From Pseudomonadota bacterium (lineage in GTDB: Bacteria; Pseudomonadota; Alphaproteobacteria; Acetobacterales; Acetobacteraceae), in NCBI GenBank assembly GCA_021849425.1, contig JAJZSY010000001.1, forward strand, positions 124,001-188,000: 64,000 nt of DNA, given 5' to 3'. The notes beneath the pieces are model-generated. The model saw only the letters and a list, made by a program, of their open reading frames with translations. It was not told where the DNA came from and ran no database searches. Shown piece after piece: positions 18,143 through 57,847 of this stretch. The translations under genes were made by a program, and so were the position numbers. Position 1 is the stretch's first letter; each line of letters starts with the position of its first letter.

Positions 18143-19026
<884 letters not shown>

Positions 19027-19030
<4 letters not shown>

Positions 19031-19758
19031 GCGCGCCTCCGGCCGAAGGCGACGGCGCCGACCAGGCCGAGCACGAGCAGGAACAGGATGGCGGCGATGC
19101 CGTCGATCTTGCGGTCGTCGCGATGGGGATCGGCGGTCCAGGCGAGGAAGGCGGCGACGTCGTGCGCCATCTGCGCCTGGTCGGGCTGCTTGCCGTCAGC
19201 CAGCGTCACCGAGCCGGGCTTCAGCGCCGGGGCCATCGCGATCTGCCCGCCGGGGAAGGCGACGTTGTAATGATGATCGGGCAGCAGCGTGAGGTTGGGC
19301 GGGGCGGCGCGGTAGCCGAGCAGCAGCGCCTGGACATAGGCGGCGCCGTTGGCGCGGCCGGACTCGAAGAGCGAGAGATCGGGCGGCAGGGCGCCGTGAT
19401 TGGCGGCTTTCGCGGCCGCATCATCGGCGTAGGACCAGGTCATGACGGCATCCGGCGTGGCCTTGACCAGTCGCGGCTTGCCGTTGGCGCCGACGCCGTC
19501 CGGCTGGCTGATCTGCGCGGTGATCGCCGCGATGTCCTTTTCGGACAGGCCGATGCCGGCGAGGTCGCGGTAGTGCACGAGGTTGAGCCCGTGGCAGCTC
19601 GCGCAATCGGCGCGGTAGACCGCGAAACCGGCTTGCAGCGTCGCGTTGTCATAGCCGCCGAAGGGCGAGAGGAAACCGAAGCCGGGCCCCTTCGCCAGCG
19701 CCGGGCCGGCGGCCAGCAGCGCGCCGGCGGTGAGACAAAGGGCGAGCAGGCGGCGCAT
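19027..19758 (-). CDS. petC: Cytochrome c1 of a bc1-type complex
   Basis: A 243-residue cytochrome c1. A signal peptide (LLALCLTAGALLAAGPALA) is followed by a heme c site CASCH at residues 52-56, the c1-specific NHGALPPDLSLFESGR, and GGQIAMAPALKPGSVT with the likely axial Met near residue 174. One C-terminal membrane helix (IAAILFLLVLGLVGAVAFG) precedes a basic end. Unlike its partners it keeps all expected heme features. Its ATG shares one base with the cytochrome b stop (TGATG), and it is followed by mtnP with a 4-base overlap. In a normal complex it accepts electrons from the Rieske protein, which is reduced to a stub here. Confidence 0.9.
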
Positions 19759-20942
19759 CAGACGATCCTCCGCGAAGGGGACGCCGCCGGGTCGCGCGGG
19801 GTTTCCAGCATGGTGACCAGCGGCGTGATGATGAGGAAATGGGCGAAGGCGTAGGTCGTGGCGAGTTCGGCGACGGTCGCCCACAGCCCGCCGGGCGCGC
19901 CGGCAGCGATGCCGAGCAGCACGAGATCGACCGCGAGGAGGACCAGGAAGCCGGCATAGACCGGGCGGCGGCGGCAGCTCGCCACCGCGCCGCGATCGAG
20001 CCAGGGCAGCGCGCCGAGCAGCAGGAAGGCGACCACGGTGAGCAGCGCGCCGCCGCCGGGGGTGCCGGCGACGCGGGCGAAGCCGTGGAAGACCAGCAGA
20101 TACCACGGCGGCGTCACCCGCACCGGAATGGCCAGAGCCGCCGGCAGGACCGGGGTTTTCGGCGTGCCGAGGCCGGGATCGAAGGCGAGGATGACGGCGA
20201 AGACGAGCGCGAAGATCAGGAAGGCGGTGAAATAGCGCCCGGCCTGAGCCTGGCGCGGCGTCATCGTTCGCGGATCGGGGGTGGTAAGGCCATCGGGATG
20301 GGCTTGCGGCGCGGCGTGGGAGGCGACGACCGTGAGCGCCGCGATCAGCAGCACGAGAAAGCCGATCGCCTCATGCGCCATCGCGACTCGCGGGGCGGTG
20401 GCGGCATTGAGCCCGGCGCCGCCGAGAAAGGCCGGGCCGAGCAGGTGACCGAAGAGCGGGATGGCGGCGAGATGCGCGTCCATCGCCAGCAGCGCGCCCT
20501 GGGCGGCGGGGCCGCCGGTCATCGCGAAGCCGAGAAAGCCGACCGCCATGCAGGCGAAGAGGCGGAGGATCTCGACGATCCAGGCCAGTTCGCGGCCGTT
20601 GCGGTAGGTGCCGTAGAAGGCGCCGCGGAACAGCTCGACGAAGAGCACGCCGAACAGCATGGTGGTGCCGACGCGGTGCAGGTCGCGGATCAGCCAGCCA
20701 TAGGGGACGTTGCGGGTGTAGTCGGCGATCGACAGCGCCGCGCCGGACAGGCTCGGCTGATAGGCGAGGCCGAGCCAGATGCCCGAGAGCGTCAGCACCG
20801 CGAGGGCGACGCCGACCAGCGGGCCGACCGACCAGGACAGCGGCAGGCCGGCGGGGACCAGCGCCTCGCTCCAGTGGCGGCGATAGGCGGCGCAGAGCGG
20901 CAGGCGGGTTTCGAGCCAGCCCTGTTGGGGGTTCGCGCTCAT
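19758..20942 (-). CDS. petB: Divergent cytochrome b lacking heme bH ligands
   Basis: A 394-residue protein aligning along its length with bc1 cytochrome b: WLETRLPLCAAY, YGWLIRDLHRVG, ELFRGAFYGTYR, GFLGFAMTGG, AVASCRRRPVYAGF and TTYAFAHFLIITPL. Normal cytochrome b has two HX13H pairs. Here His89 and His190 (bL positions) are kept, but the partners 14 residues on are Glu103 and Thr204, so both bH ligands are missing. The Qo-site PEWY is PPWY (278-281) and the usual LPWGQMSFW loop is replaced by GGPAAQGAL. His209, equivalent to the Qi-site His, remains. A normal Q-cycle looks impossible. The frame is intact and coupled to both neighbours. Confidence 0.88.
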   Translation of the reverse strand: MSANPQQGWLETRLPLCAAYRRHWSEALVPAGLPLSWSVGPLVGVALAVLTLSGIWLGLAYQPSLSGAALSIADYTRNVPYGWLIRDLHRVGTTMLFGVLFVELFRGAFYGTYRNGRELAWIVEILRLFACMAVGFLGFAMTGGPAAQGALLAMDAHLAAIPLFGHLLGPAFLGGAGLNAATAPRVAMAHEAIGFLVLLIAALTVVASHAAPQAHPDGLTTPDPRTMTPRQAQAGRYFTAFLIFALVFAVILAFDPGLGTPKTPVLPAALAIPVRVTPPWYLLVFHGFARVAGTPGGGALLTVVAFLLLGALPWLDRGAVASCRRRPVYAGFLVLLAVDLVLLGIAAGAPGGLWATVAELATTYAFAHFLIITPLVTMLETPRDPAASPSRRIV

Positions 20943-20944
20943 GG

Positions 20945-21154
20945 TCAGCGCAACCCGTTCATCATGGCGTGGGGCAGCGGGGCGGCGCCCGGCGCCTCGG
21001 CGGCGCGGGAGGGCGCGAGGGAAGAGGCGAAGCACCACAGCAGCACCGCGAGGCCCATCAGCGAAATGGTCGCAAACAGGATCCGGGCGAAATCCTGCCG
21101 ACCGTCATTGTGTTCCCCGGCGCCGGACGCGCCGGATGCGGCAACCGCAGCCAT
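20945..21154 (-). CDS. Rieske-like membrane anchor stub (no 2Fe-2S domain)
   Basis: A 69-residue protein in the place where petA (Rieske iron-sulfur protein) normally precedes cytochrome b. It shows EHNDGRQDFARILFATISLM and a single membrane helix (LFATISLMGLAVLLWCFASS), resembling the DGTRRDFL-type N-terminus plus anchor of Rieske proteins. It then stops with a short tail ending PHAMMNGLR. The cluster-binding CTHLGC and CPCHGS boxes are absent, and I find no continuation downstream. GGGAG lies 7 bases before the ATG. The stop is 2 bases before the cytochrome b start. Homology is an inference from position and a short motif. Confidence 0.6.
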   Translation of the reverse strand: MAAVAASGASGAGEHNDGRQDFARILFATISLMGLAVLLWCFASSLAPSRAAEAPGAAPLPHAMMNGLR

Positions 21155-21261: not shown

Positions 21262-22191
21262 ATGACGGGCATGACAGATATGCATGCGCCATCCGCCCCG
21301 CCCCCCCCTGCCCCGCCGCCCGCGCACGAGGCGCTGAAGCCGGCGGCGAGCGACTGGTTCCGCACGCTGCGCGACCGGATCTGCGCCGCGTTCGAGGCGA
21401 TCGAGGACGCGCATGGCGGGATGCTGGCGGACCGCGCGCCGGGCCGCTTCGTCCGCACGCCGTGGACGCGCTCGCCGGACGGGCAGAACCGGCTGGAGGG
21501 CGGCGGCGAGATGAGCCTGATGCGCGGCCGGGTGTTCGAGAAGGTGGGGGTGAACATCTCGGTGGTGGGCGGCGCGTTCAGCCCGGAATTCGCGAAGAAC
21601 ATTCCCGGCGCGGCGGAGGACCCGCGCTTCTGGGCGGCGGGGATCAGCCTGGTCGCGCACATGCACTCGCCGCGGGTGCCGGCGGCGCACATGAACACGC
21701 GCATGATCGTGACGACGAAGGGATGGTTCGGCGGCGGCGGCGACCTGACGCCGTTGCAGCCGGGGACGGCGGCGGCGGCCGAGGACGCGGCGCTGTTCCA
21801 TGCCGGGTTCCGGGCGGCGTGCGACAGGTATGACCCCGACTATTACCCGCGCTTCAGCAAATGGTGCGACGAGTATTTCTTTCTGCCGCATCGCGGCGAG
21901 ACGCGGGGTGCGGGGGGGATTTTCTACGATTATCTGGAGACCGAGCCGAAGCGGCATTTCGCGTTTACCCGCGATGTCGGCCTCGCGTTTCTCGAAACCT
22001 ATCCGGCGATCGTGCGGCGGCGGATGGACGAGGCGTGGACGCCGGAGGAGCGCGAGGCGCAGCTGGTGCGGCGGGGGCGGTATGTCGAGTTCAACCTGCT
22101 CTATGACCGCGGCACGACGTTCGGGCTGAAGACCGGCGGCAATACCGAAGCGATCCTGATGAGCATGCCGCCCGAGGTCAAATGGCCGTGA
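21262..22191 (+). CDS. hemF: Oxygen-dependent coproporphyrinogen III oxidase
   Basis: A 309-residue HemF, which uses O2 to decarboxylate coproporphyrinogen III in heme synthesis. Conserved blocks are [90 protein letters not shown] and [20 protein letters not shown]. Length fits the family. Several ATGs crowd the start (21262, 21271, 21280); the variable Pro-rich head makes the choice uncertain. It is divergent from the bc1-type operon, with 107 bases between. Confidence 0.96.
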
Positions 22192-24871: not shown

Positions 24872-25312
24872 TTACTTGACCTGCGAGACCAGCTTCGCTG
24901 TCGAGGCGCCGGCGGCGGCGTAGGTGAGCGCCGTGCCGCCGGCGGGGTAGCCGTTGCGGCTCAGGATGAAGGCCATGATGTCGGCATAGTCCTTGTGCGA
25001 GAGGCTGCCGGGGGCGCCGGCGGGCATCTGCTGGGACAGTTCGTCGAAGATCGCGGCGACGGTGTAGTTGTTCGAGGCGCTGGCGAAGCCCTGGCCGACC
25101 AGGGCGGGACCGCTGATGCCCTGGAGGTTGGCGCCGTGGCACATCGAGCAATGGGCTTCGAAGGTGGCGTGGCCGGCGGCGGCCTGGGCCTTGGTGTAGA
25201 GCGCGGGCAACGGCGCCGCGGCGGCGATGGCGACGCTGCCGGCGGCGGCCACGAGGCCGGCGAGCAGGCGCGCATGCGGGCGGCGCAGGGAGCGGGAGAG
25301 ACGTTCGAGCAT
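24872..25312 (-). CDS. Periplasmic c-type cytochrome, likely electron acceptor of the PQQ dehydrogenase
   Basis: A 146-residue monoheme cytochrome c. A signal peptide (LLAGLVAAAGSVAIAAAA) leads to AAAGHATFEAHCSMCHGANL with the CSMCH heme site near residues 55-59; the axial Met is probably in QQMPAGAPGSL, typical of class I cytochromes. The segment YADIMAFILSRNGYPAG is the C-terminal helix. It is the last gene of the alcohol-oxidation operon, 27 bases after the MxaJ-like gene, so it most likely takes electrons from the PQQ dehydrogenase, as ExaB and XoxG do in related systems. Confidence 0.9.
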   Translation of the reverse strand: MLERLSRSLRRPHARLLAGLVAAAGSVAIAAAAPLPALYTKAQAAAGHATFEAHCSMCHGANLQGISGPALVGQGFASASNNYTVAAIFDELSQQMPAGAPGSLSHKDYADIMAFILSRNGYPAGGTALTYAAAGASTAKLVSQVK

Positions 25313-25339
25313 CGGGGCAGTCCTTTCGAGCGGAAGGCG

Positions 25340-26200
25340 TCAGGGCGTGTGGTAGGGAGCGATCAGGCGGGCCAGGGTGCCGGCTTTCGCGAGGCGGGCG
25401 AGTGCCGCATCGAATCGGTGCGCGACGGCGCGGCCGGCGGGAGTCGGCGCGTGGAGGGCGACGACCGACCAGTTCGCGTGCGGCTGGCGCAGGGCGCGCT
25501 GGTGGAGCGGCATGTGGTTTTTCGCCAGCGCCTGTTCGAGCAGCGGCTGCCAGAGCAGGGCGTAGGCGACCTCGTGCCGGCCGAGGGCGGCGAGCACGCT
25601 CGCGGGCGTGGAATATTGGTGCGCGGCGAGGCGGGCGCCGGGGCCCGCGCTGAAATAGGTCGTCGGCACGGTGAGATAGACGACGCCGACCTGCGTGCCC
25701 GGCTTCAGGCTGGAGAAAGCGGGCGGCGGGGTTGCGCCGGCGATGACGAAGCCGGTGCGCAGATAGGGGCGGGTGGCGGCGACGCCGGGCGGCAGAACCG
25801 GATGGCCGGTCTCGACCGGGAAACCCATCACCAGGTCGCAGCGCTTGACCAGCCCGGCAAAGAAGCGGGGCTTCTTCGCGTTCAGCGCATCGGAGCCATC
25901 GCGCGTGTCGATGGAGACGATTCGCGGGGTGGCGCCCTCGATCCGGCCGATGGCGGCGGCGAGCGCGCGATCGACCCCGTGCAGGGGATTGGCGCGGTCG
26001 ATGCAGACCGAGGGGCCGGACGAGGCGAGCGCCGGGGCGATGCCGGCGGCCGCGAGCAGCAAGCCGGCCAGCGCCGTGCGGAGATGACCCGGCCGCTGAC
26101 GCGGCCAGAGGGCGGAGCGAAAAACCGGCCGCAGGAGCGGCCGGAGGGCGGAGCGAAAACCCGGCCGCCGAAGCGGCCGGGGTGACAGACGATCAACCAT
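25340..26200 (-). CDS. MxaJ/XoxJ-like periplasmic binding protein
   Basis: A 286-residue solute-binding-fold protein of the quinoprotein-dehydrogenase-associated group (MxaJ/XoxJ). After the signal segment (HLRTALAGLLLAAAGIAPALA) come SVCIDRANPLHGVDRALAAA, FFAGLVKRCDLVMGFPVET and TRPYLRTGFVIAGA. XoxJ is thought to help mature or activate the dehydrogenase; its exact role is not settled. The only usable start I see is the ATG at 26200, which overlaps the upstream stop by 8 bases, so the N-terminus carries ~35 residues of RPLRRPGFRSAL-type repeats ahead of the signal peptide. Those are encoded by hairpin-forming 36-base repeats and may be junk. Confidence 0.82.
   Translation of the reverse strand: MVDRLSPRPLRRPGFRSALRPLLRPVFRSALWPRQRPGHLRTALAGLLLAAAGIAPALASSGPSVCIDRANPLHGVDRALAAAIGRIEGATPRIVSIDTRDGSDALNAKKPRFFAGLVKRCDLVMGFPVETGHPVLPPGVAATRPYLRTGFVIAGATPPPAFSSLKPGTQVGVVYLTVPTTYFSAGPGARLAAHQYSTPASVLAALGRHEVAYALLWQPLLEQALAKNHMPLHQRALRQPHANWSVVALHAPTPAGRAVAHRFDAALARLAKAGTLARLIAPYHTP
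26089..26188. repeat. Three 36-bp tandem repeats forming hairpins
   Basis: Units start at 26089, 26125 and 26161, each opening CCGGCCGC and containing GCGGCC, so each can fold into a hairpin; the first two continue AGGGCGGAGCGAAAA. They lie within the start of the MxaJ-like gene just past the PQQ dehydrogenase stop. Confidence 0.9.
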
Positions 26201-27905
26201 TGAGCGCGAAGACGTGGAGCTGGCCACCGCGCGGCGCCTTGGCGAGCGAGGCGCCGAGCTTGCCCGACCACAGCGGCCACACGCCGCCCCAGCCCGACCA
26301 GACCGCGACATACTGCTTGCCGTCGACCTTGTAGGAGATCGGATTGGCGATCACGCCGGAGCCGAGATAGGGGCTCTTCCAGAGGATTTTTCCGGTTTTC
26401 GCGTTGAAGGCGTAGAGATGACCGTCGGTCGTGCCGGAGAAGACGAGGCCGCCGGAGGTCGCCATCGCGCCGCCATCCCACGGCTCCTTGGTGGCGTGCT
26501 GCCAGACCTGCTTGCCGGTGGACAGGTTGATCGCCTGGATCGACCCCATGTGGTGCGGCGAGGCGGGGTCGGGCTTCATCTCGAAGGTTTCGCCGAGATA
26601 GGGCAGGCCCGCGGCGTAGCTGACCGGCGCGCCCTTCATCGTCATGCAGGCGTGCAGGGTGGGGACATAGGCCATGTTGGTCGCGGGATCGACCGCGCCG
26701 GGCCACCAGTTCTTGCCGCCGAGGAAGCTCGGGCAGGTGAAGATCTGCTTGTCGAGCGCGGGCTGGAGTTTCGGGTTGTTGACGGCGTGGCCATCCTTGA
26801 TCCCGGTGATCGAGGTGTCGTGCACGAAGGGCACGGCGTAGATCAGCTTTCCGGTCTCGCGGTTGATGGCGTAGAAATAGCCGTTGCGGTTCGCCTCGAC
26901 CAGGGCGTGGTAGGGTTTGCCCTTGACGGTGATGTCGGCGAGCTGGGCGGTGTTCACACCGTCATAGTCCCAGGTGTCGTTGCGGGTGTACTGGTAGTGC
27001 CACTTGATCGCGCCGGTGTTGGGGTCGATCGCGATGACGCTGTCGGAATAGAGGTTGTGGCCGGGGCGCATCGAGGCGAGCCACGGGCCGGGATTGCCCA
27101 CACCCCAGAAGAGTTCCTTGGTTTTCGGATCGTAGGTGCCGGTCATCCACGGGCTGCCGCCGCCATGCTTGTAGGCGCCGGCCGGCCAGGTCTTGCCGCC
27201 GGGCTCGGTCGGCGAGGGGATGGTGTGAGTTTTCCAGAGCAGCTTGCCGGTCTGTGCGTCGAGCCCGACGATGAAGCCGCGGGCGCCGTATTCGCCGCCG
27301 CCGGCGCCGATGATCACTTTACCGTCGACGACCAGCGGGGCCTCGGAGATCGAGTAGCCGATACCCGGCTTTTCGAGGGCGACGTTCCACAGAACCTTGC
27401 CGGTTTTCGCATCGAAGGCGAGGACGTGATTGTCCAGCGTGCCCATGAAGACTTCGTTGCCATAGACGGCGACGCCGCGATTGTTGGTGTCGCAGCAGAT
27501 CGTCTTCAGCGCGGCCTTGGGAAGATCGTAGTCGTATTCCCAGAGTTTCTGGCCGGTCTTGGCGTTGAAGGCGATGAGATGATCGAGCGGGGTGGTGGCG
27601 AACATGTAGTCGCCATTGACGATCGGCGTGCCTTCGAAACCGTCGGGGATGTCGATTTTCGCGGACGACCAGGCGGCCTTGAGGTTGTGGACGTTCTTCG
27701 TGTTGATCTGCGCGAAGGGCGCGTAGTCGTCGCCGGCGTAGCTGCGGTTGTACATCAGCCAGCCATTGGAGGCGGAGGCGCCATCGAGCCGGGCCTGGGT
27801 GACGCTCGGATAGGCGGGCTGGGCCGCGGCGGCGCCGGCGGCGAGCAGCGTGCCGGCGAGCGCGCCGAGCAGCGCGGTTCCGGTTCTGGCGAGTCGTGAC
27901 TTCAT
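26193..27905 (-). CDS. PQQ-dependent alcohol dehydrogenase, probably lanthanide-type
   Basis: A 570-residue periplasmic quinoprotein with an eight-bladed propeller and no heme domain. A signal peptide ends near AAAAQP (~30). Blade motifs such as GKVLWNVALEKP recur. The vicinal disulfide is Cys137-Cys138 (TICCDTNNRG). The catalytic Asp is at 313 in NDTWDYDGVN, and Asp315 two residues on is the extra ligand typical of lanthanide-dependent enzymes (XoxF, ExaF, PedH); calcium types have Ala or Ser there. It oxidises a primary alcohol such as ethanol or methanol; substrate is not determined. It lies 62 bases after DUF779 in the operon, with GGGAG before the ATG. Confidence 0.92.
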   Translation of the reverse strand: MKSRLARTGTALLGALAGTLLAAGAAAAQPAYPSVTQARLDGASASNGWLMYNRSYAGDDYAPFAQINTKNVHNLKAAWSSAKIDIPDGFEGTPIVNGDYMFATTPLDHLIAFNAKTGQKLWEYDYDLPKAALKTICCDTNNRGVAVYGNEVFMGTLDNHVLAFDAKTGKVLWNVALEKPGIGYSISEAPLVVDGKVIIGAGGGEYGARGFIVGLDAQTGKLLWKTHTIPSPTEPGGKTWPAGAYKHGGGSPWMTGTYDPKTKELFWGVGNPGPWLASMRPGHNLYSDSVIAIDPNTGAIKWHYQYTRNDTWDYDGVNTAQLADITVKGKPYHALVEANRNGYFYAINRETGKLIYAVPFVHDTSITGIKDGHAVNNPKLQPALDKQIFTCPSFLGGKNWWPGAVDPATNMAYVPTLHACMTMKGAPVSYAAGLPYLGETFEMKPDPASPHHMGSIQAINLSTGKQVWQHATKEPWDGGAMATSGGLVFSGTTDGHLYAFNAKTGKILWKSPYLGSGVIANPISYKVDGKQYVAVWSGWGGVWPLWSGKLGASLAKAPRGGQLHVFALNG

Positions 27906-27967
27906 GAAGGTCTCCCTAAGAGTTTCTGGTGTTGTGAGGGTTGAAGGAGCGGCGCTTCTGCGCGCCG

Positions 27968-28363
27968 TCAGGCTTGGGGAGCCCGGGCGGCGGCGGCGAC
28001 GTTTGCCGCGGCGGCCTCGTTCGGAAACAGCCGCGAGCGCACATGAAAGCGCAGCCCGGTGCCGTTGTCGAGCGAGAACATCCCGCCGATGCCGGCGACG
28101 ACGTCGATGACGAGCTGGGTGTGACGCCAGTACTCGAACTGCGACGCGCCGATATGGAACGGCGCGCCGCCGATGCTCCCGAGGCAGATATCGTCCGGGG
28201 AAACGACGAAATCCGCCTGCGGGTAGCACATCGGCGCCGAACCGTCGCAGCAGCCGCCCGACTGGTGGAACAGGACCGGGCCATGACGCGCCGTGAGTTC
28301 GGCGATCAGCGCGAGGGCCGATGGCGTCGCGATCACGCGCGGGGGATGATCCGGTCCTGTCAT
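27968..28363 (-). CDS. DUF779 protein
   Basis: A 131-residue DUF779 protein. Blocks: ALALIAELTARHGPVLFHQS, then GGCCDGSAPMCYPQADF with three cysteines and CLGSIGGAPFHIGASQFEYW, and the C-terminal GMFSLDNGTGLRFHVRSRLF. DUF779 genes almost always sit next to acetaldehyde-type dehydrogenases; the role is unknown, possibly metal- or redox-linked given the Cys-rich patch. The ATG is 2 bases after the aldehyde dehydrogenase stop, so it is translationally coupled. Confidence 0.92.
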   Translation of the reverse strand: MTGPDHPPRVIATPSALALIAELTARHGPVLFHQSGGCCDGSAPMCYPQADFVVSPDDICLGSIGGAPFHIGASQFEYWRHTQLVIDVVAGIGGMFSLDNGTGLRFHVRSRLFPNEAAAANVAAAARAPQA

Positions 28364-28365
28364 GG

Positions 28366-29898
<1,533 letters not shown>

Positions 29899-29960
29899 GG
29901 TCTGGTCCTCCTTCTGGCGGCCTCGGGACGGGCCGCGCCGATTGTTTCGCAGGATGATGA

Positions 29961-29976
29961 GCAAATGCCGTGCCAA
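29961..29976 (-). promoter_or_regulatory. Sigma-54 promoter of the alcohol-oxidation operon
   Basis: On the minus strand the sequence is TTGGCACGGCATTTGC: the -24 element TGGCACG, four bases, then the -12 element TTGC. It matches the RpoN consensus essentially perfectly and lies 63 bases upstream of the aldehyde dehydrogenase ATG. Confidence 0.88.
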
Positions 29977-30036
29977 AGCCGCGACATGGCGCGGCGCGGG
30001 GGTTTGCGCGGCCGGGAGCGGCGATGCCGGGGCGGC

Positions 30037-30078
30037 GGGACGTCCCGATCGGGGACACTGTCCCAAAACGGGACGTGT
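30037..30078 (-). promoter_or_regulatory. Palindromic upstream activating sites for the AcoR-type regulator
   Basis: Two palindromes sharing GGGAC/GTCCC: GGGACGTCCC (30037-30046), and ACACTGTCCC with GGGACGTGT around AAAAC (30055-30078). They lie about 60-115 bases upstream of the sigma-54 promoter, where enhancer-binding proteins normally bind. That the divergent regulator binds them is inferred from position. Confidence 0.65.
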
Positions 30079-30184
30079 CGCATTGTTCCGTTGCGCCGCC
30101 GGGACGCCGGGCCTAGTGTCAGGCAAACATGACGCGGCCGCGAAAAGGCCGCGCGAGCGAGGAAACGCAGGACGGACGCCGCCG

Positions 30185-32152
30185 ATGGACCATCATTCCG
30201 CACAACACGAGGACAGGCCGGCGCGGTTGCGGGCCGGCAAGGAGCGGCTCTGCGCCGGGCTGGACGGGGCGGCGCCGAACGCGCTGCTGGCGCGCTCGTG
30301 GCAGCGCTGCGTCAGCGCCGGGCTGGCGCCGGATCTCGGCGCGCGGGAGGCGCCGCATCTGGACGGGGTCGAGCTGCGCGAGGCGCGCGAGCGGGTTTCC
30401 GACCTCGCACTGCGGGCGCGGCCGATCATCGACTATCTCTACGGGCAGATCAGGGATTCCGGCTGCGTCGTGCTGCTGTCGGGCCCGGACGGGTTCCTGC
30501 TGGACGCGGTGGGCGATGCGAGCTTCACCGGGCGGGCGGCGAAGGTGGCGCTGCTGCCGGGGGCGAGCTGGGCGGAAGCGGACCGGGGGACCAACGCGGT
30601 GGGCACCGCGCTGATCGAGGCGGCGCCGGTCGTCGTTCACGGCGCGGAGCATTTCCTGGAGCGGAACAATTTTCTCGCCTGCGCCGCCTCGCCGCTGATC
30701 GCCTCGACCGGCGAGCTGCTCGGCGTGATCGACATTTCCTGCGACCAGCGGGTGTATCATCCGCACACGTTCGGCCTGGTGCGGGCGGCGGCGCAGATGA
30801 TCGAGACCAGGATGTTCGAGATGTCACATCTGCGTGACATCAAGCTGCGGTTTCACACGGCGCGGCAGGGGATCGGCACGCCGGGCGAGGCGGCGGTGGC
30901 GCTGGGCGGCGACGGCACGCTGCGCGGGGCGAACGGCGTGGCGATGGAGATGCTGGGGCTGCGGCGGAAGGATCTGGGGGCGGCGCCGGTGAGCGCGTTC
31001 TTTCACGACACGCTGGAGGCGCTGCTGGCGCGCGAGCGGCGCGGCGGCGGCGAGCCGGTGGAGCTGCGCGGGCCGGACGGGCGGCGGCTGTTCCTGCGCA
31101 TCGACATGCCGCGCGCGCCGCGGGCGCCGCGGGCGGCGACGATCTGGCCGAGCGACGCGCTGGCCGCACTGGAGACCGGCGATGCGCTGGTGGCGCGGGC
31201 GATCGGCCAGGCGCGGCGGGCGCTGGGGCGGGCGATCCCGATCCTGATCCATGGCGAGACCGGGGTGGGCAAGGACGTGATGGCAAGGGCGATCCACGCC
31301 TCGGGGCCGCGGCGGGGCGGGCCGTTCGTCGCCGTCAACTGCGCGGCGCTGCCGGAGACGATGATCGAGGCGGAGCTGTTCGGCTACGGGCCCGGCGCCT
31401 TTACCGGGGCGCGGCGCGAGGGCGCGCCGGGGCGCATCCGCGAGGCGGCGGGGGGCGTGCTGTTCCTCGACGAGATCGGCGACATGCCGCTGGCGATGCA
31501 GACGCGGCTGCTGCGGGTGCTGGAGGAGCGGGTGGTGACGCCGCTGGGCGGCAAGCCGGTGGCGGTGGATTTCGCGCTGCTCTGCGCCACCAACCGCGAC
31601 CTGCGGCGGGCGGTGGCCGAGGGGCGGTTCCGCGCCGACCTGTTCTACCGGATCAACGGGCTCGGCATCACCCTGCCGCCGCTGCGCCAGCGCGCCGACC
31701 TCGACGCGCTGATCGGGCGGATTCTCGGCGGCGAGGGCGAGGCCGGGGCGCGGCGGCTGGCACCGTCGCTGCGCGCGGCGTTCGGCGCCTATCACTGGCC
31801 GGGCAATATCCGCCAGCTCGCCAATGTGCTGCGGATCGGCCAGTCGATGTGCGATCCGGAGGAGAGCGAGATCGGCTGGGAGCATCTGCCGGACGACGTG
31901 GCCGAGGAGCTGCGCGGCGGCGCGGCGGGCGGACAGGATGGGGTCGGGCAGGATGGGGCCGGGTCCGACGCGATGATGGCGGCGGGCCGGATGGCGACGG
32001 GCGGGGCGGCGTCGCTGCGCGAGGGGTCGGACCGGCTGATCCTGCGCGCGATCGAGGCGGCGGAGGGGAACATGAGCCGGGCGGCGCGGCGGCTCGGCAT
32101 CAGCCGCAACACGCTCTATCGCCGGCTCGCGCAGATCCGCGCCACGGGCTGA
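30185..32152 (+). CDS. Sigma-54-dependent activator, AcoR type
   Basis: A 655-residue enhancer-binding protein. Order: an N-terminal sensory GAF-like region (~50-210: [45 protein letters not shown]), a PAS-like stretch (~225-330), an AAA+ domain (~345-560) with Walker A GETGVGKD, the sigma-54 contact loop GAFTGA and Walker [14 protein letters not shown], and a Fis-type HTH at the end ([20 protein letters not shown]). This layout is that of AcoR/AcxR regulators of acetoin, alcohol and ketone pathways. It is divergent from the operon with sigma-54 promoter and GGGAC sites between. The inducer is unknown. Confidence 0.93.
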
Positions 32153-57773: not shown

Positions 57774-57847
57774 TGGAGGTCCGGGCGGGAATCGAACCCA
57801 CATCCAAGGATTTGCAGTCCTCTGCATAGCCACTCTGCCACCGGACC
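57774..57847 (-). tRNA. tRNA-Cys (anticodon GCA)
   Basis: A complete 74-base tRNA including an encoded CCA. Acceptor arms GGTCCGG and CCGGACC, discriminator T, D arm GCAGAGTGGCTATGC, anticodon stem GAGGA/TCCTT around CTGCAAA with anticodon GCA, and T arm GTGGGTTCGATTCCCGC all fold. U73 suits tRNA-Cys. It lies between prpE and pcm. Confidence 0.97.

Follow-up and report, generated by a model that had tools for sequence, protein, structure and literature searches.

What can a cytochrome bc1 operon still be kept for once its cytochrome b has lost both ligands of heme bH? The question is raised by three genes in the window, a 64,000-nucleotide stretch of contig JAJZSY010000001.1 (assembly GCA_021849425.1) from genome G000 (2.9 Mb, 94% complete, 65 contigs). 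An earlier note on this DNA had left the choice between a repurposed one-heme membrane complex and an operon at the very start of its decay. The window genome can be assigned to Acidiphilium because two members of its genus (G003 and G006) carry a petB letter-for-letter identical to that of Acidiphilium sp. PA and A. rubrum. The genus sample comprised 13 genomes (G000–G012), 11 of them with petB, and the reference for these 11 cytochromes b was a set of 45 canonical ones of the same family and class. Another sixteen loci, low-scoring or extra (L075–L090), were treated apart from the 45 canonical rows.

The pet operon of the window

The operon consists of a petA remnant, petB and petC on the minus strand, flanked by hemF and an mtnP-like gene (Table 1). 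The stop codon of the petA remnant is followed after 2 nt by the ATG of petB, one base is common to the TGA of petB and the ATG of petC, and the stop of petC overlaps the ATG of mtnP. The translational coupling of petB with its neighbours that the earlier note had proposed is borne out by these coordinates.

Table 1. Features of the window discussed in the text, with positions counted from the first letter of the window
Feature	Position	Strand	Basis or remark
mtnP-like gene, downstream landmark	18143..19030	-	name by resemblance alone
petC, cytochrome c1, 243 aa	19027..19758	-	PF02167, E 1.1e-59
petB, cytochrome b, 394 aa plus stop	20942 to 19758	-	Pfam PF00033 and PF00032
petA remnant, 69-aa Rieske transmembrane anchor, no [2Fe-2S] domain	20945..21154	-	TIGR01416 and Rieske profile
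hemF (coproporphyrinogen III oxidase), divergent upstream landmark	21262..22191	+	PF01218, E 2.2e-88
PQQ methanol/ethanol-type dehydrogenase, protein with no family match, small cytochrome c, ExaC-type aldehyde dehydrogenase	24872-30126	-	
sigma-54 activator, adjoins the PQQ dehydrogenase cluster	29840-32152	+	
tRNA-Cys (gca)	57774-57847	-	sole RNA gene in the window by ARAGORN or Rfam

The product of petB is a cytochrome b by its fold: it exceeds both Pfam cut-offs, the same fold was found in all 11 genus members, and its profile match to PDB chain 6nin_A has an E-value of 2.3e-59. The bL ligands His89 and His190 are present, and the bH positions, 14 residues after each of them, are occupied by Glu103 and Thr204. 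The PEWY site reads PPWY (residues 278–281), and AMTGGPAAQG stands where LPWGQMSF is expected. All of these residues are as the earlier note had read them. Alignment with the cytochromes b of other Acetobacteraceae and alphaproteobacteria gave the same division: the bL columns are His in 11/11 genus members and 45/45 canonical proteins, the bH columns are His in 0/11 vs. 45/45, and the column of the PEWY Glu holds Pro in 11/11 and Glu in 45/45. Judged on these columns (11 vs. 45), the ligand pattern of the Acidiphilium cytochrome b is not due to chance. Relative to the canonical alphaproteobacterial bc1 complex (PetABC; chains 2qjp_A and 6nin_A, which we take to be from Rhodobacter), the fold, length, bL ligands, WY of PEWY, PWLD and gene order are shared, whereas the bH ligands, the PEWY Glu, the LPWGQMSF motif and the Rieske cluster are missing.

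The only invariant His columns across the 11 genus cytochromes b are 89, 157 and 190. His157 aligns in the cd region, far in sequence from the bH ligand positions, and an alternative His at the bH site was rejected, no conserved candidate being found among the 11 proteins. Nor is there a second intact petABC: PF00033 matches one place in the window genome (94% complete, 65 contigs), giving no second cytochrome b, and no Rieske protein above cut-off was found elsewhere in that genome, its one partial match to TIGR01416 reaching 20.4 bits (cut-off 97.4).

The petA remnant is identical to P0004 minus its first residue. It matches TIGR01416 over profile positions 2–41 with an E-value of 0.13 and scores 21.5 bits on the Rieske profile, a score that none of 500 block shuffles matched. 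Six stubs of this kind score 14–31 bits, and 0/500 block shuffles of each reached its score. By this profile and shuffle evidence the "stub protein" seen earlier beside petB is what is left of the Rieske subunit, its transmembrane anchor. The window genome thus has an anchor and no Rieske protein with four cluster ligands, and it lacks the cluster ligands as well as the bH ligands; within the genus, G010 is the exception to this double loss. The cytochrome c1 of the window retains the CASCH heme site, the Met-ligand stretch GGQIAMAP and the C-terminal anchor, so both the CxxCH site and the Met ligand of a cytochrome c1 are present.

Because the bH ligands, the Rieske cluster and the PEWY Glu are absent, the Q-cycle would be gone; this rests on the sequence and on established knowledge of bc1. 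The loss of the Qi-side heme and the broken Q-cycle, both claimed in the earlier note, find support in the ligand columns of the whole genus sample with petB and are already described in PMC10715153 (Degli Esposti et al., 2023). That paper reports Acidiphilium to be devoid of the ISP gene and of both bH histidines, states that the bH and ISP losses are always associated, describes ligand loss in the ISP of Acidocella, and puts forward stabilisation of complex I as a role for the deranged bc1. Acidiphilium without ISP is also recorded in PMC5322542. The combination of bH-histidine loss and missing Rieske protein in Acidiphilium is therefore already published (PMC10715153). The locus studied here agrees with that deranged bc1 of Acidiphilium/Acidocella in genus, bH loss, lack of a Rieske cluster protein and presence of the c1 heme site; it differs from the published account in that an anchor stub of the ISP remains and that G010 keeps all cluster ligands. 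In a literature search that covered mainly the main texts of open-access papers, we did not find in print the anchor-only Rieske protein, the G010 exception, the erosion of c1, the loss in G005 or the new invariant residues. A search of the main text of the genus paper (PMC7677001) found neither "bc1" nor "Rieske", and the portions covered of PMC8790237 and PMC4013037 hold nothing on this cytochrome b.

Ancestry, erosion and selection across the genus

The 11 genus cytochromes b form one clade with a support of 100/100; the tree is flagged for joining two long branches (G009/G001 with G002/G004/G008). Since the bH ligands and the PEWY Glu are lost in 11/11 members of one clade, the loss is ancestral to these 11 and not recent. 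Because G012 is an incomplete genome (83%) in which the mtnP landmark is missing, its lack of a cytochrome b or c1 match was not counted in the argument on operon loss.

The Rieske anchor is present in 11/11 genus members, with the cluster ligands lost in 10/11. Six members carry the anchor alone (G000, G007, G003, G006, G011, G009), and four carry a full-length Rieske protein without cluster ligands (G001, G002, G004, G008). The Rieske protein of G010 (L061:3647-4282) has all four cluster ligands in its CPHRGC and CPCHG boxes and is encoded beside a cytochrome b without bH ligands. In the tree of cytochrome b, G009, which has a stub, pairs with G001, whose Rieske protein is full-length, so that the G009 truncation is separate from those of the other clade. 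That other clade includes G010, and the Rieske cluster was accordingly lost at least two times with the anchor kept each time. This count, and the placing of bH loss first, assume vertical inheritance of the G010 Rieske gene. The G010 protein groups with the genus weakly in the Rieske tree (68/71); this placement disfavours acquisition by transfer, and vertical inheritance is likely. The cytochrome c1 CxxCH is kept in 11/11 genus members. The Met-ligand stretch is missing in three (G001, G009, G011) of the 10 with a readable c1, that of G004 being cut by a contig end, and the protein is shortened to 165 aa in G009 and is shorter still in G011.

Selection was estimated as dN/dS by NG86 with 95% bootstrap intervals. 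Values for petB were 0.13–0.49 (seven pairs) with every upper bound below 0.72, so that the intervals exclude 1 in 7/7 pairs; constraint was weakest in the window's own pair G000/G007 (0.49; 0.34–0.67). The corresponding ranges were 0.12–0.46 for petC (five pairs), 0.07–0.41 for petA or the stub (six pairs) and 0.04–0.13 for mtnP (five pairs, same genus). The petB frame is open, as the earlier note had observed in the window, with no internal stop in 11/11 genus members, the most distant pair of which has ~36% identity. petB is under purifying but relaxed selection. The suggestion that decay of the operon is only beginning finds no support, the defect being common to 11/11 members of one clade that combine open frames with petB dN/dS values in the above range.

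Across the 11 genus members, 62 of 394 petB residues are invariant. Of 120 columns that are nearly invariant among the canonical proteins, all 11 genus members retain 32, all six sampled genomes of a second genus of the family, g93, retain 31, and 18 are retained in both groups, the two bL ligands among them. Retained residues were more frequent on the periplasmic side (22/61 vs. 13/58), a trend that is not significant (p = 0.11) and that depends on helix borders we assumed for the count. A further 32 columns are conserved in at least 10/11 genus members and in at most 9/45 canonical proteins, and include Asp87, Arg127, His157 and Met188. Asp87 and His157 are found in 11/11 genus members vs. 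0/45 canonical proteins, and in 0/6 of g93. Compared with chain 6nin_A, Asp87 takes the place of a Tyr two residues ahead of the bL ligand, and His157 that of the Leu in ITGLFGAIP, within the cd region, which lines the Qo site. Part of these new conserved columns may be explicable by shared descent.

In g93, which from its Rieske pattern is probably Acidocella, both bL His are present in 6/6 genomes and one or both bH His are lost in 6/6. Pseudogenes were considered there and rejected, the in-frame stops of three g93 genes falling at the normal C-terminus. In the genus g78, one bH His is lost in 2/2 genomes with a match, and two further sampled genomes have no match. The g78 loci L078 and L079 have Asn at the first bH ligand, keep the other three His and read PQWY; in this other genus of the family the loss is partial.

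Respiratory context and loss of the operon

The window genome has one COX1 over cut-off, representing a single heme-copper oxidase, with no bo3-type match in the COX1 search. This oxidase is of the aa3 type and the adjacent COX2 contains the CuA ligands; the CuA pattern led us to reject, for the window genome, an aa3-type oxidase turned quinol oxidase. The COX1 gene of G010 runs off its contig end. The 49-kDa subunit of complex I was found in 13/13 genus genomes, and thus in all 11 with cytochrome b. Reaction-centre genes are present in the window genome; no reaction-centre match was found in G002, G004, G008 and G010 (G002 78% and G004 88% complete), all of which carry the pet complex, and these four genomes rule out a strict link of the complex to photosynthesis.

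Electrons may enter cytochrome c by other means. Alternative complex III contains NrfD-like subunits; no NrfD-type match was found in the window genome, so it was dismissed as a replacement there. An NrfD match over cut-off occurs in 3/9 genus genomes searched, including G007, the closest relative of the window genome, and alternative complex III may therefore be a replacement elsewhere in the genus. The PQQ dehydrogenase of the window scores 573.8 bits on TIGR03075 (cut-off 480) and has a vicinal Cys pair. Enzymes of this type pass electrons to cytochrome c, and the cluster is a possible candidate for a bc1-independent route into cytochrome c. Iron oxidation by Cyc2 is a published suggestion for the supply of cytochrome c.

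The hemF and mtnP matches of G005 (99% complete) are separated by 91 bp that contain no pet match (L095, L104), and searches of the whole genome for cytochrome b, c1 and the Rieske protein found none. The 49-kDa subunit of complex I is retained in G005, as are three COX1 genes above the cut-off; because the operon is gone while complex I and COX1 remain, the pet core is dispensable at least in this genome. A link of the complex to the oxidase was rejected, COX1 being kept in G005 without bc1. Among the three COX loci of G005, the CuA pattern was found beside L069 and not in the stretches of L070 and L071. G005 also holds a second mtnP-like gene. In two genomes of other genera, G135 and G035, no cytochrome b or c1 match was found.

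What the remaining core may be kept for

We consider it somewhat more probable than otherwise that a bc1 membrane core, dead for the Q-cycle as read from its sequence, is kept under relaxed selection mainly as a scaffold. The retained core comprises cytochrome b with its bL ligands, a c1 that has kept heme site and anchor, and the transmembrane helix of the Rieske protein, which breaks off ahead of the cluster domain; it would still assemble around one b heme per cytochrome b. Its role would lie outside the Q-cycle and be mainly structural, as a partner in assembly or in supercomplexes of the respiratory or photosynthetic membrane, and cytochrome c would probably be reduced by other routes, for example via the PQQ alcohol dehydrogenase and cytochrome c genes of the window. 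Erosion would have begun with the bH ligands, gone on to the Rieske cluster (at least two times) and then to the Met stretch of c1, and ended in one relative with loss of the whole operon. Against this explanation, the scaffold partner is putative and G005 does without the core. Constraint is also weakest in the window's own lineage, the periplasmic-side bias of retention is not significant, and the grouping of the G010 Rieske protein with the genus is weak. The genus-invariant Asp87 and His157 near bL also seem more than a pure scaffold needs; together with the selective retention of the bL ligands, the new invariant residues would favour some role for a one-heme complex.

Slow decay without function, with a relic operon losing parts one by one and G005 as the end point, would explain the relaxed petB dN/dS (up to 0.49), the shortened c1 of G009 and G011, and the missing operon of G005 alongside the lack of cytochrome b and c1 matches in G135 and G035. 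We regard it as unlikely, however, given that no petB has acquired a stop despite the divergence of the most distant pair, that dN/dS intervals exclude 1 in every petB pair, that 62 residues are invariant and that the anchor helices have survived at least two separate Rieske truncations.

The engineered bH knockout H212N of Rhodobacter capsulatus reportedly has an intact Rieske protein and Qo site. Heme bL is reduced in this bc1, which lacks both hemes bH, according to PMC4330944, and a bL-only complex is therefore physically reasonable; the same paper records that a fused-dimer form with both H212N changes was not obtained. A repurposed one-heme redox enzyme would combine bL with a periplasmic-side pocket (Asp87, His157, Met188, PWY) in a new reaction with a quinone or a periplasmic partner, possibly with bL–bL transfer across the dimer. 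Such transfer on the catalytic timescale is described for engineered Rhodobacter bc1 in PMC4330944, and the proposal is consistent with the 32 newly conserved columns, including Asp87 and His157, and with two genera that keep the bL ligands and lose bH ligands. Changes on a stem branch can, however, persist by descent, g93 has neither Asp87 nor His157, and no electron acceptor is evident after loss of the Rieske cluster; because c1 lacks the Met-ligand stretch in 3/10, a bL–c1 route is not conserved. We therefore think such an enzyme quite unlikely. The same low probability is given to the more specific proposal of a one-b-heme complex with a new conserved site periplasmic of bL (Asp87, and His157 in the former Qo cd region), its Rieske protein reduced to a helix, no Q-cycle, and bH loss preceding cluster loss.

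A structural partnership with complex I, as suggested in PMC10715153, fits the presence of the 49-kDa subunit in all genus genomes, including every one with cytochrome b. It appears very unlikely as the explanation, since G005 has three full-length 49-kDa matches and zero pet genes, and the 49-kDa subunit also occurs in G135 and G035, where cytochrome b is missing. The view that complex I strictly needs the deranged bc1 is weakened by G005; the three genomes show that the partnership is not strictly needed and remain compatible with such a role elsewhere. An antimycin-like linear quinol:cytochrome c reductase using heme bL would suit G010, with all its Rieske ligands, full c1 and bL ligands, but is most improbable with the PEWY Glu lost in G010 too and with the Rieske protein of the window genome an anchor with no other above cut-off.

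Within one genus it can be followed how a highly conserved bioenergetic enzyme is taken apart in nature: a bH-less complex with a ligand-bearing Rieske protein (G010), a ligand-less Rieske protein, an anchor-only Rieske protein, a shrunken c1 and clean loss (G005). The series makes it a testable question why bL ligands and membrane anchors persist after loss of the Q-cycle, and by which path cytochrome c receives its electrons in organisms that have an aa3-type oxidase, and several of them reaction centres, but no working bc1.
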